A stretch of 64,000 nucleotides of DNA, from contig CANGPO010000003.1 in assembly GCA_947455705.1 (NCBI GenBank), forward strand, positions 1 to 64,000, given 5' to 3'. The position numbers were made by a program, and so were the translations under genes. Below are positions 21,712 to 25,956 of the stretch, piece after piece; within the stretch, counting starts at the first letter, position 1; each line of letters starts with the position of its first letter. The notes beneath the pieces are model-generated. The model worked only from the letters and a program-made list of their open reading frames with translations, was not told where the DNA came from and made no database searches. The stretch comes from Actinomycetota bacterium (GTDB lineage: Bacteria > Actinomycetota > Actinomycetes > S36-B12 > CAIYMF01).

Positions 21712-22206
21712 ATGAAGCGCACAAGCCGACTTATGGCGACCGGACTAGCTGCCACGGGAGTCGTGGCTACCGCTGGTGTGGCCACGGGAATGGGATTGCC
21801 GCAGGGAGCAGCACCCACCTCATCAACCACTGCGTCCGTCGTTCGTAATCAAGCCACCTCCGCCGTCATGGCCGATCTTGAGCGTCAACTGGCCGACCTC
21901 AGGGATCAAACAGGTGTGCTCAGTGCTGAAGCGCGCGCAGCAGCGGCGTCACTTCGATTGGCCAAACATGCCCAGTTGGTTGCCCTTCAGCGGGCTGCCG
22001 CCGATGCGGCGGCAGCCGCGGTACGACGCAAGGCCGCGCAGCAGGCCGCCGATGCGGCACGTTTGAAGGCCGCCACGCGGGCAGCGTCGACACCGAAGGC
22101 GACGTACAGCTCCTCGAGCTCGCAAGCTCCTCAATCTCACGGTTCAACCGGTGCAAGCGGATCGTCCTCCTCAAACAGCGAAGACGAAGGTGGCACTGAT
22201 GACTAA
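21712..22206 (+). CDS. Small exported coiled-coil protein with TGASGS tail, candidate flavinylated carrier
   Basis: The 164-residue protein has a signal peptide or anchor (residues 1-30), a heptad-like Ala-rich helix (52-125) and a Ser-rich tail. At 144-150 the tail reads GSTGASG, followed by S, so residues 146-151 fit the (S/T)-G-A-(S/T)-x-(S/T) site to which ApbE attaches FMN in NqrC/RnfG-type proteins. The gene is three positions upstream of apbE in one operon. The FMN-binding fold normally surrounding the site is absent. No known family is recognised. It overlaps the next gene by eight bases. Confidence 0.6.
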   Translation: MKRTSRLMATGLAATGVVATAGVATGMGLPQGAAPTSSTTASVVRNQATSAVMADLERQLADLRDQTGVLSAEARAAAASLRLAKHAQLVALQRAAADAAAAAVRRKAAQQAADAARLKAATRAASTPKATYSSSSSQAPQSHGSTGASGSSSSNSEDEGGTDD

Positions 22207-22669
22207 TCGTGGAACACGGGCGCGATGGACCACCGCGGCCCTTATCGCCCCCACTGCCGCTGCGCTTTTCACGGGGACAACCGTGTGGGCAGCGGGTCAC
22301 CAACCTGCCCCAGCCGTTAAGGCAGCGCCGAAGGTGGCAGCGACGCCAGATCCAGCCGTCGTCGCATTACGTCAGGAAGTGGCAACGAACGCAGCGCAGG
22401 TGGCAAGTCTGCGTAAAACGGTCGCATCGCTGAAGAAGCAAGCCGATGCCATTGTTACCGGGACCCCGGGAACGGCAAAGAAGTCGTCCAAGGCCAGCAG
22501 TTCCTCTGCATCATCTACTGGGTCATCCACGGTGACAAAGAAGAAGTCAAAGAAGAAGAAGTCGAGTTCGTCATCGTCTTCATCTGGATCGAGTAATTCA
22601 GGTGGATCGTCAACGTACGTCGCACCGCCGCCGGCCCAGGGCTCGACCGGTGCCTCAGGAGCACCGTAG
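22199..22669 (+). CDS. Second small exported protein with GSTGASG tail, candidate flavinylated carrier
   Basis: The start is ATG 22199, overlapping the previous stop, with AAGG upstream; the longer frame from 22151 is unsupported. The 156-residue protein has a signal peptide or anchor (~8-33), a short helix (~52-85), a Lys/Ser-rich linker (95-138) and the C-terminus GSTGASGAP. Residues 148-154 repeat the seven-residue motif of the preceding protein, but four of the seven codons differ synonymously. That points to selection on the peptide and not to a recent DNA copy. The last position of the flavinylation consensus is Ala here, so modification is less certain. Confidence 0.6.
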   Translation: MTNRGTRARWTTAALIAPTAAALFTGTTVWAAGHQPAPAVKAAPKVAATPDPAVVALRQEVATNAAQVASLRKTVASLKKQADAIVTGTPGTAKKSSKASSSSASSTGSSTVTKKKSKKKKSSSSSSSSGSSNSGGSSTYVAPPPAQGSTGASGAP

Positions 22670-22672
22670 GCC

Positions 22673-23653
22673 ATGACGACTCACGTCAGCCCGACTGACA
22701 GCGAGTCTGATCTTCGGACGTCGTTTACCTCTATGGCCTCGCAGGTTCGATTCTGGGTTCATCACCCGAACACCGAGGCAGCGGTTCTGGCGGAACGCGC
22801 GCAAAGAGTCTTTGAATCCGTTGCATCCTCGTGTACCCGGTTCGATCCGTCGAGTGCATTGATGCGGGCGAATACTGCTGCGAAGAACTGGGCGACCCTG
22901 CCGGTCGAATGCTACGACGCCATAGCCGCTGCATACGACGCACATCGGTTCACCCTTGGGCTCTTCGATCCGCGCACTCTTGAAACGTTGACGGAACTGG
23001 GCTACGAATCAACACTTCCATTTGAGTCACAAGAGATTTCGCTGACGACCTCGGCTGTCGCGGTCGGTGCGAAGGAACATCGCATTCGACCATGGAAGCC
23101 TTCGTTCGATCTGGCGAGGCATGCTGTGCGAGTGGGGGATCGCCCCATAGATCTAGGTGGCATCGGTAAAGGCTTGGCGGTTCGGTGGAGCGCTGACGTA
23201 CTTCGTGACGCCGGTGATGCGGTGCTGATCGAAGCTGGTGGAGATGTCATGGCACTCGGTGCCGGTCCGAACGGTGACGGTTGGATGATCTCGGTGGAGA
23301 ATCCAAGCTCAGGATCGGATCCCGTCGCAGTGTTGCGATTGACCGATCGGGCAGTGGCTACATCATCGACCAGGATTCGATCGTGGGTTGTCGATGGTGA
23401 GCAGGTGCATCACATCATCGATCCGCGCACCCGTCGTCCGGCACAGTCTTTTCTTCGTGCCGTCACGGTCGTGCATAGCGACCCGGCTGACGCTGAGGTC
23501 TGGAGCAAGTCTCTCTTTATCGCGGGTCGTAGTCAGATCCGAAAGCTCTCTGACGACAAGGGATTAGCCGCGCTCTGGGTCGATGTGGATGGCCGCATGA
23601 CCATGAGTCGAGCGATGCGAGAATTTGTCGCATGGCAGGTTTCAGATGTCTGA
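22673..23653 (+). CDS. apbE: ApbE family FAD:protein FMN transferase
   Basis: The 326-residue protein has the ApbE hallmarks: CTRFDPSSALMRANT near residue 55, LFDPRTLETLTELGY, DLGGIGKGLAV (the FAD/Mg region), LIEAGGDVMALG and HHIIDPRTRRPA. The enzyme transfers FMN from FAD to a Thr or Ser in target proteins. I see no signal peptide or lipobox at the N-terminus. Three bases separate it from the small GSTGASG protein upstream and it overlaps the cytochrome b gene downstream, so the targets are likely in the same operon. Confidence 0.9.
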   Translation: MTTHVSPTDSESDLRTSFTSMASQVRFWVHHPNTEAAVLAERAQRVFESVASSCTRFDPSSALMRANTAAKNWATLPVECYDAIAAAYDAHRFTLGLFDPRTLETLTELGYESTLPFESQEISLTTSAVAVGAKEHRIRPWKPSFDLARHAVRVGDRPIDLGGIGKGLAVRWSADVLRDAGDAVLIEAGGDVMALGAGPNGDGWMISVENPSSGSDPVAVLRLTDRAVATSSTRIRSWVVDGEQVHHIIDPRTRRPAQSFLRAVTVVHSDPADAEVWSKSLFIAGRSQIRKLSDDKGLAALWVDVDGRMTMSRAMREFVAWQVSDV

Positions 23654-24425
23654 TAAATCAGCCCGGTCGGCAGTTACCCAGCATCCGCGTGCTTTTGCTC
23701 GAGGTGCGGGATTGGTGCTCGGTATCACGTTCAGCGCCGTCGCTACGTCCTTTCTGATCGGCACGGCCGTTGCATCCATCGCATCTGATCGCATGGCACC
23801 GTGGATCCTAGGTAGAGCAGCCGGAATCTCGTCGTATCTCCTGCTTGTCGCTCTCGTGGTCATGGGCCTTCTCCTATCGCATCCCCGGCGAGCGCAATGG
23901 AATCGGCCAAGCTCAGCCACTCGAATCCGCATACACGTGAGCCTGTCTGTTTTCACCCTTGTGTTCGTGGTACTGCACATTGTTGTCCTTGCGACAGACA
24001 AGTACGCCGGCGTGGGCTGGTGGGGCTCCTTCGTTCCCATGGGCTCGTCTTATCGTCCAGTGGCGGTAACCCTTGGCGTTATTGGGTTGTACGCGGGCTT
24101 GATCGCAGGGCTCACAGCTGCTTTTGCTGGTCGGGTATCGCAGCGGGTCTGGTGGCCGCTGCACAAAGTGGCAATAGTGTCGCTGGTGCTCGTCTGGCTA
24201 CATGGAGTACTTGCGGGCGTCGATACGCCAACACTTCTGGGCATGTACATCGTGACGGGCGCGTCGGTGTTGGTTCTTGCGATCACTCGTTACGTCGCCA
24301 AGAGCAATAGCGACGATCTGGCCGAGTTGGAAGCAGCTCAGGCCCACGAGCTCATCTTGCATCCGCCAAAGAGTTCGCAGCGAGGTTCGTCTGGGCGTCG
24401 ATCATCCGATGGTCGTTTCCTATGA
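23646..24425 (+). CDS. Ferric-reductase-like transmembrane cytochrome b
   Basis: The start is ATG 23646 inside the end of apbE. The 259-residue protein has six hydrophobic segments. Two pairs of histidines are placed one helix turn-set apart for two stacked hemes: HVSLSVFTLVFVVLH (spacing 14) and HKVAIVSLVLVWLH (spacing 13), the pattern of ferric reductases and NADPH oxidases. No flavin or NAD domain is attached. That role probably falls to the NuoF-like protein and ferredoxin inside the cell and a flavin carrier outside. Confidence 0.85.
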   Translation: MSDKSARSAVTQHPRAFARGAGLVLGITFSAVATSFLIGTAVASIASDRMAPWILGRAAGISSYLLLVALVVMGLLLSHPRRAQWNRPSSATRIRIHVSLSVFTLVFVVLHIVVLATDKYAGVGWWGSFVPMGSSYRPVAVTLGVIGLYAGLIAGLTAAFAGRVSQRVWWPLHKVAIVSLVLVWLHGVLAGVDTPTLLGMYIVTGASVLVLAITRYVAKSNSDDLAELEAAQAHELILHPPKSSQRGSSGRRSSDGRFL

Positions 24426-25711
24426 GCGGCCAGAACGTAACGGTTGATCGTTCGATTTTCGGTGGAGCAACAGCTGTTGTGCCGCGAGGTGGCACTGAAA
24501 CTTTGTCCGGTGTTAGCCGGATGGATTTGGCATCACATCGTGCCGCATTCGGGCGACGTACGAGCTCTCGCGGGCAAGCCGGAGCTGCATTGATCGACGA
24601 GCTGGCAGCCGTTGCACTGACCGGACGCGGAGGCGGACACTTTCCGGCTGCGGTCAAGTGGCGATCGGTCGCTAGTGCTGGCACGGGCGGGATTGTCGTT
24701 GTTAACGGCGCTGAGGGAGAGCCGGGTTCAGCCAAGGATGCAGTCCTGCTGCAGACTCGACCTCATCTAGTCCTCGACGGAGTCATCGCGGCCATGGAGG
24801 TTACGGGTGCGCGCGAAGGGGTCGTGTGGCTTCATCAAGGTGCAGATTCGACCGTGCGGTCGGTACGTTCTGCGATCGCAGAACGGATTGCAGCGAGTGA
24901 GGATGAGCTACCGCTGCGAGTAGTTCTTGCACCTGATCGATACGTCTCCGGTGAAGCGACGTCGATCATTCGCACCATCGAGGGTGGGCCCACCCTCCCG
25001 CGATTCGTGAACAATCCAGCGCAGCCGTGGTCCGATGGTGGTCGGCCGATTCTGGTGAACAACACCGAGACCATGGCTCGGGCTGGACTTATCGCACTGC
25101 GTGGAGCGGCTCAGTATGTGCCCACGTCACTTGTGACCGTCATTTCTCGCGGCTATCGATCAGTGATCGAAGTTGGCGTCGATGAAACATTCGGGACGTT
25201 GATTGGCTCTCATTGGTCGGACTTTGCCGCCGGTGAGCCGCAGGCGGTACTGCTCGGGGGTTACGGGGGTTCATGGGTGTCATGGAGCGACGTTCGACGC
25301 CTTCGCGTCGACCCCGTCGCACTCAAGCCGGCTGGGCTCTCGATTGGCGCAGGCCTCGTCGGGCCGCTTCCCGCGACTGCATGTGGCATCGAGGAGTCCA
25401 CCCGCATCGTGAACTATCTTGCGGGTCAGTCTGCTCGCCAATGTGGGCCATGTGTCTTTGGGCTTGCTGCGGTGGCCCAACTATGTGACGACCTGACTGC
25501 AGGTGCGCTCACTTCGGCCGGACGAAAGCGGCTTACTCGTTTTATGGGCGAGATCTCCGGGCGCGGTGCGTGTCGCCATCCCGACGGCGCGATCCGCATG
25601 GTCACATCGGCACTGCATGTGTTTGGGGCTGACGTTTCTCGGCATCGGCGCGGCCGCACGTGCAATGCCAAGGTCTACGGTGTGATGCCTCTTCCGGGAG
25701 AACTGTCATGA
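24422..25711 (+). CDS. NuoF-like NADH dehydrogenase subunit
   Basis: The 429-residue protein has the FMN/NADH fold of the 51-kDa complex I subunit: GRGGGHFPAAVKW (~69-81), VVNGAEGEPGSAKD, PDRYVSGEATSIIRTIEGG and GRPILVNNTETMA. The iron-sulfur region reads SARQCGPCVFG and later GRGACRHPDG. Against the usual SCGxCTPCR...C pattern the first Cys is an Ala, though an extra Cys (QLC) lies in between. It should oxidise NADH and feed the neighbouring ferredoxin or cytochrome b. ATGA overlaps connect it on both sides. Confidence 0.8.
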   Translation: MSGQNVTVDRSIFGGATAVVPRGGTETLSGVSRMDLASHRAAFGRRTSSRGQAGAALIDELAAVALTGRGGGHFPAAVKWRSVASAGTGGIVVVNGAEGEPGSAKDAVLLQTRPHLVLDGVIAAMEVTGAREGVVWLHQGADSTVRSVRSAIAERIAASEDELPLRVVLAPDRYVSGEATSIIRTIEGGPTLPRFVNNPAQPWSDGGRPILVNNTETMARAGLIALRGAAQYVPTSLVTVISRGYRSVIEVGVDETFGTLIGSHWSDFAAGEPQAVLLGGYGGSWVSWSDVRRLRVDPVALKPAGLSIGAGLVGPLPATACGIEESTRIVNYLAGQSARQCGPCVFGLAAVAQLCDDLTAGALTSAGRKRLTRFMGEISGRGACRHPDGAIRMVTSALHVFGADVSRHRRGRTCNAKVYGVMPLPGELS

Positions 25712-25956
25712 CCCGTCACCATGCCCAGGATGCTCGCCAGCAGGTAACGGATCTGGTCGGCCCAACACTTCGGATTGATCCCAGCTTGTGCGACGGGGTT
25801 GGTATTTGTGCCCATCTTGCGCCCGACCTGATCGCGCTAGATTCATGGGGCTACCCGATCATTGACGATCATGCCCTAACCCGCAAAAGACTTATGCGTC
25901 AAGCCCAATCGGTCGTTTCGGCATGTCCGAAAAAGGCGCTCTTCATTCAGGGTTAA
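25708..25956 (+). CDS. Single-cluster ferredoxin, probably [3Fe-4S]
   Basis: The start is ATG 25708, overlapping the previous stop. The 82-residue protein has only three cysteines: CDGVGIC (C-x5-C) and SACPKKAL. This is the layout of small [3Fe-4S] ferredoxins known from actinobacterial P450 systems. It probably carries electrons between the NuoF-like protein and the membrane cytochrome b, as the last gene of the operon. Confidence 0.85.
   Translation: MTRHHAQDARQQVTDLVGPTLRIDPSLCDGVGICAHLAPDLIALDSWGYPIIDDHALTRKRLMRQAQSVVSACPKKALFIQG

Follow-up and report, generated by a model that had tools for sequence, protein, structure and literature searches.

The window analysed here, a 64,000-nucleotide stretch of an Actinomycetota bacterium (contig CANGPO010000003.1, positions 1 to 64,000), carries on its + strand a six-gene operon (positions 21712–25956) that quite probably encodes an MsrQ-like flavinylation system for transmembrane electron export; two fold-less, membrane-anchored, disordered carriers of flavin mononucleotide (FMN) would take the place of the FMN_bind protein. 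The window belongs to a 2.98-Mb genome draft that is 97.7% complete. The genes encode, in order, two small proteins (P1 and P2), an ApbE-type flavin adenine dinucleotide (FAD):protein FMN transferase, an MsrQ-like membrane protein, a NuoF-like subunit and a small ferredoxin, and their junctions are overlaps of 8, 8, 4 and 4 bases and a single 3-base gap (between P2 and ApbE), so that the original prediction of an operon with overlaps or gaps of at most three bases agrees with the coordinates (these include stop codons, and gene calls in GC-rich metagenome-assembled genomes (MAGs) are mechanical open reading frames (ORFs)). The evidence consists of this operon structure, a tail motif conserved together with apbE, the absence of alternative targets from some genomes and the predicted disorder of the tails; the covalent attachment of FMN, the topology and the route of the electrons (its direction, its order and the last acceptor) we infer.

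P1 (21712–22206, +) is a 164-residue N-anchored coiled-coil protein in which the heptapeptide GSTGASG occupies residues 144–150 (codons GGT TCA ACC GGT GCA AGC GGA at 22141–22161, +) and is followed by a short acidic C-terminus. P2 (22199–22669, +) has 156 residues, comprising an N-terminal hydrophobic helix, a short coiled coil, a long Ser/Lys/Pro-rich linker and the C-terminal sequence PPPAQGSTGASGAP, in which GSTGASG occupies residues 148–154 (codons GGC TCG ACC GGT GCC TCA GGA at 22640–22660, +). The two copies differ synonymously at four of seven codons, including that of the last Ser (AGC in P1, TCA in P2), and positions and codons are thus as first described; the description of the motif as a C-terminal tail holds for P2, where it lies at the extreme C-terminus, and not strictly for P1, where the acidic end lies beyond it. 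Among the 311 window ORFs of at least 80 residues, TGASG occurs in P1 and P2 only.

We compared the ApbE loci of nine genomes from the same genus and three further ones from the order. In these 12 genomes apbE follows two genes for small proteins whenever the contig includes that region, and both proteins end in a TGAS-type sequence, the exceptions being TGGS (P2 of locus L052 and P1 of L054) and TSGGS (P2 of L048). A wider scan of named genomes plus 395 genomes of the class gave 44 proteins encoded directly upstream of apbE, of which 30 have TGAS within their last 12 residues against 0.07 expected from composition-preserving shuffles (maximum 2), and 40 have T-x-[A/G]-S against 1.6 expected (maximum 7). 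Of 37 P1-type proteins, 24 have TGAS within their final 60 residues (shuffle expectation 0.3). Homologues beside apbE thus keep the motif, on which the original prediction depended, in both the 12-genome and the 44-protein sets, and the relatives that seem to lack a tail mostly have variant ones such as TTHAS, TTKAS, TTRAS or WTGSS. P1 and P2 are compositionally biased, and a chance origin of the motif in low-complexity sequence rich in Ser, Gly, Ala and Thr might be considered; the shuffles and a control across all loci, in which only two genes not of P1 or P2 type among 4279 ORFs of at least 80 residues have TGAS in their last 12 residues, refute it and leave it a negligible probability.

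The aligned tails give the consensus P-x-x-[H/Q/N/D]-[A/T]-[T/S]-T-G-A-S, whose upstream Pro is kept in 37 of 41 P2 tails. Among the proteins that fit, whose alignment is anchored on T and S, the A between these two is nearly fixed (37/41) and the G can give way to K, R, H, S, T or A. The Ser families AGY and TCN cannot be interconverted by a single synonymous step, and both are used for the final Ser (AGY and TCN, respectively, 14 and 12 times in P1, and 6 and 25 times in P2). Outside the tail motif the sequences of the proteins upstream of apbE diverge freely: between species of the genus the tail heptamer is 78–84% identical and the preceding linker 24–34%, and for P2 the pairwise identities within the genus are 0.90 for the N-terminal hydrophobic helix, 0.24 for the linker and 0.84 for the tail.

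ApbE attaches FMN to the C-terminal Ser or Thr of D-x-x-[S/T]-G-A-[S/T] (PMC12052999). The tail consensus fits this motif in spacing, with its H/Q/N/D falling exactly on the Asp position, and the [S/T]-G-A-[S/T] core is present as TGAS in P1, P2 and most orthologues. Since the published rule puts FMN on the C-terminal Ser or Thr of the motif, the predicted acceptors are S149 of P1 and S153 of P2 and not the Thr, which is residue 146 in P1 and 150 in P2; of the two residues named earlier for mutation, Thr147 and Ser149, the first does not stand, as residue 147 of P1 is Gly. According to the account of Tong et al. 2021 given in PMC12052999, an engineered flavin-tag of seven residues, D-x-x-[S/T]-G-A-[S/T], at a protein terminus suffices for flavinylation by ApbE with no flavin-binding fold, and such synthetic tags gave their best results at protein termini. 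By analogy, the P1 and P2 tails are best read as natural counterparts of this C-terminal tag. As described there, the engineered tag is artificial and starts with Asp, whereas the tails of P1 and P2 are natural, have H, Q, N or D at that position and have a conserved upstream Pro.

No Pfam or NCBIfam family matches P1 or P2 above cut-off, and PF04205 (FMN_bind) matches neither at E ≤ 1. The AlphaFold model of P1 is a single long helix (residues 40–126, pLDDT, the model's per-residue confidence score, about 95) plus a disordered tail, and that of P2 has an N-terminal helix (6–33), a coiled-coil-like helix (52–86) and a disordered remainder (pLDDT around 45–52); a flavin-binding fold is present in neither model. 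The helices fit the original description of the pair as small exported coiled-coil proteins. Both proteins have basic N-termini ahead of the hydrophobic helix, and an N-in, C-out topology is therefore favoured by the positive-inside rule. In P1 homologues the motif is nearly always followed by an acidic C-terminal stretch rich in Asp, Glu and Gly (22162–22203 in the window), which P2 does not have; a metal- or partner-binding role is possible for this stretch.

The enzyme encoded downstream (22673–23653, +) is of the ApbE type, with matches to PF02424 (2.2e-48) and to ApbEs in the PDB (1vrm, 5e-37). Tail-linked enzymes account for 46 of the 51 rows in one clade of an 81-row ApbE tree (support of 95 in the Shimodaira–Hasegawa-like approximate likelihood ratio test, SH-aLRT), and of the five remaining rows L067 (TTRASGA) and L124 (HAKTGASG) are tailed too and L093 lies at a contig edge. 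Members of the clade come from Actinomycetota, Chloroflexota and MAGs labelled Bacillota (labels as in the record titles). Within the genus, P2 and this ApbE have the same distribution: ten genomes have both and the eleventh has neither. The Ser/Thr/Pro-rich linkers of P1 and P2 are typical of secreted, possibly O-glycosylated proteins, and one could imagine that the tails are sites of another modification, or sorting or wall-attachment signals, with a coincidental likeness to the ApbE motif. Such a coincidence is very improbable in the face of the strict co-occurrence with one ApbE clade, the spacing that fits D-x-x-[S/T]-G-A-[S/T], and the sharing of the motif by two otherwise unrelated-looking proteins of one operon.

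Are P1 and P2 the true targets of this enzyme? Several observations weigh against their flavinylation and are gathered here. FMN that lacks a binding fold would be solvent-exposed and might auto-oxidise. The residues at the catalytic Ser and His positions of ApbE are conserved; at metal-site or catalytic positions, however, the Asp and Thr of structurally known ApbEs are replaced by Glu275 and Lys279, which are invariant in the tail-linked clade. These two residues do not by themselves imply an inactive enzyme, because among 30 other ApbEs compared 20 share the Glu and 16 share the Lys; as a speculation, Lys279 might compensate for a missing substrate Lys such as Lys207 of NqrC. Inspection found no signal peptide in the ApbE of the window or in any of 13 orthologues, so the enzyme is probably cytosolic and the tails would be flavinylated inside the cell and exported afterwards, which would oblige the cell to export FMN-bearing tails; signal-less ApbEs that function in the cytosol are known (PMC12052999). 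The Asp found six residues before the acceptor in ApbE substrates is His in P1 and Gln in P2, and D stands at this position in only 3 of 41 P2-type tails, the rest having mostly H, Q or N; a change of this Asp to Ala had only a minor effect in one tested substrate (PMC12052999). ApbE also prefers Thr over Ser as acceptor (PMC12052999), and the tails of some relatives, with K, R, H or S for Gly, or with TGGS, TAGS or WTGSS, lie beyond the motif that has been tested. Finally, the window genome has five FMN_bind domains on other contigs, one of which sits with its own ApbE.

This last point, together with the fact that most known ApbE targets are FMN_bind proteins (PMC8238504), would suit a reading in which the motif serves ApbE or the membrane protein as a docking or regulatory peptide, while flavinylation in truth falls on an FMN_bind protein encoded at another place in the genome. 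We consider this improbable. The FMN_bind domain accompanied by its own ApbE belongs to a canonical cluster on contig C128, which encodes the exported FMN_bind protein (containing SGATLSS), a signal-less ApbE and a Ferric_reduct/FAD/NAD-binding protein; it resembles the tail operon in having a Ferric_reduct membrane protein, an exported substrate and a signal-less ApbE, and differs from it in its FMN_bind substrate, its fused FAD/NAD-binding domain and its ApbE lineage. The tail itself, moreover, is a textbook flavinylation motif. A motif scan saw no FMN_bind-type protein in the tail clusters, and on the contigs that carry the tail cluster in the window genome and in 13 relatives the Pfam model found no FMN_bind gene. 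Pfam model searches of three tail-bearing genomes (G017, G048 and G054) found no FMN_bind and no NqrB/RnfD, and nothing above cut-off for DUF2271 (one 22-bit fragment in G054). G048 and G054 each have a single apbE, the tail-linked one, and FMN_bind elsewhere as the sole target, which the original prediction had named as the danger to its case, is rejected for these two genomes, as are DUF2271 or NqrB/RnfD as hidden targets. Because none of these families was found above cut-off there, the tail proteins appear to be the only candidate targets in G048 and G054 among the families tested. The second apbE of G017 adjoins genes for a disordered small protein (ending in TTPASGGS), an MsrQ-like protein and a NuoF-like protein, the last two identified by reading their sequences.

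The three remaining genes of the operon encode plausible partners for an FMN carrier. The MsrQ-like, or ferric-reductase-like, membrane protein (23646–24425, +) matches PF01794 (Ferric_reduct; E = 3.5e-6) with 27.5 bits, just below the cut-off of 28, and its His97, His111, His173 and His186, kept in 43–45 of 45 relatives, are consistent with two b haems; the near-cut-off match and the four conserved His bear out its first description as a bis-heme ferric-reductase-like protein. The NuoF-like subunit (24422–25711, +), predicted to oxidise reduced nicotinamide adenine dinucleotide (NADH), has an FMN domain and a 4Fe-4S region (Complex1_51K 1.9e-30, NADH_4Fe-4S 2.2e-13), and its Cys341, Cys344 and Cys384 are conserved without exception in the 31 rows that extend to them, Cys321 being kept in 28. 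Ala takes the place of the first Cys in the usual cluster motif SCGxCxPC of this protein, and the conserved Cys321, twenty residues upstream, may substitute as a cluster ligand. The small 3-Cys ferredoxin (25708–25956, +; Fer4_15) has invariant C28, C34 and C73 (32/32). What is known of these families supports a path from NADH through NuoF, ferredoxin and two haems to the outside.

The proposed chain would work as follows: ApbE in the cytosol would flavinylate the T-G-A-S Ser in each disordered tail, either ahead of the export of P1 and P2 or in its course; the N-terminal helices would hold P1 and P2 in the membrane, where the two would associate via their coiled coils, and their flexible tethers would present FMN outside the cell. 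The NuoF-like protein would oxidise NADH, electrons would pass via the ferredoxin and the two-haem MsrQ-like protein to the tethered FMN, and the FMN would then swing and deliver them to an acceptor in the wall or outside the cell. A search beside the operon and its relatives for a conserved acceptor gene found only a two-component system, in some lineages. A response-regulator-type gene lies upstream of P1 in L059, L062, L063, L066, L069 and L075, and in L075 this gene is confirmed as a response regulator with an adjoining sensor kinase. As none of the conserved neighbours was recognised as a gene for a dedicated extracellular acceptor, and as a two-component system beside several relatives is compatible with signalling, P1 and P2 could be flavinylated and yet serve as an FMN store, a wall-bound redox buffer or a sensor rather than as obligatory carriers, or the electrons could flow inward. 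We regard this as rather unlikely; an operon that joins P1 and P2 to a two-haem protein, a NuoF-like protein and a ferredoxin with conserved cofactor ligands fits electron transfer, though sequence does not fix its direction.

The electron-export chain proposed here resembles the NuoF-like subtype of the MsrQ-like systems of Actinobacteria (PMC8238504) in having apbE, a PF01794-type two-haem protein and a NuoF-like (PF10589) module in one cluster, and differs in having two small disordered tail proteins for FMN_bind plus a separate gene for the 3-Cys ferredoxin. That is, of the components by which MsrQ-like systems are recognised, the window cluster has the two-haem PF01794-like protein and the NAD(P)H-oxidising module, and has no FMN_bind, DUF2271 or DUF3570 substrate. 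In the survey of Meheust et al. 2021, 1797 MsrQ-like clusters were found, 31 of them with a NuoF-like gene and typically with FMN_bind (PMC8238504); signal peptides were sought there on ApbE, FMN_bind, DUF2271 or DUF3570 genes (PMC8238504), and tail-type clusters would therefore largely be passed over. The nearest natural precedent is given by the FMN_red proteins, whose flavinylation sites lie outside the FMN_bind fold on an unstructured C-terminal extension (PMC11334425); their FMN docks into a pre-existing flavin-binding fold, which the P1 and P2 models do not have. In the open-access literature searched (most subscription journals lie outside it), all described ApbE substrates that we found hold FMN in or beside a folded domain, and no fold-less or disordered natural substrate is described.

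We think it reasonably likely that these proteins represent natural flavin-tags: a class of ApbE substrates, spread over several phyla, in which disordered proteins anchored in the membrane and lacking a flavin-binding fold would carry FMN on their C-terminal tail, as a redox arm that swings across the cell wall. If so, a seven-residue tail suffices in nature as it does in the laboratory, some genomes with "orphan" apbE genes gain candidate substrates, and annotation of flavin-based electron export should seek tails and not domains. The class may not be limited to T-G-A-S: tails of the form [S/T]-G-[A/G]-S, and others akin to it, next to MsrQ-like apbE clusters in Streptomyces, Chloroflexota and further groups may belong to it as well.

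Some further sequences seen near apbE or FMN_bind genes are recorded here. In two Streptomyces loci (L101 and L109) a small N-anchored disordered protein with two [VM]TRSSGS copies, one at its very C-terminus, is encoded upstream of apbE, in the neighbourhood of an MsrQ-like gene, and is possibly the Streptomyces version of the tail. In the actinobacterial loci L155 and L157 the proteins encoded upstream of apbE belong to DUF2271, a family already known as an ApbE substrate, and have TTYTRGS at their very C-terminus, which may be their flavinylation site. On two other contigs of the window genome (loci L010/L011), FMN_bind domains form the C-terminal part of large secreted proteins that carry DUF7507/DUF11-like repeats (C19), and FMN_bind is also found on a 1198-residue frame with fibronectin-III-like repeats (C111).

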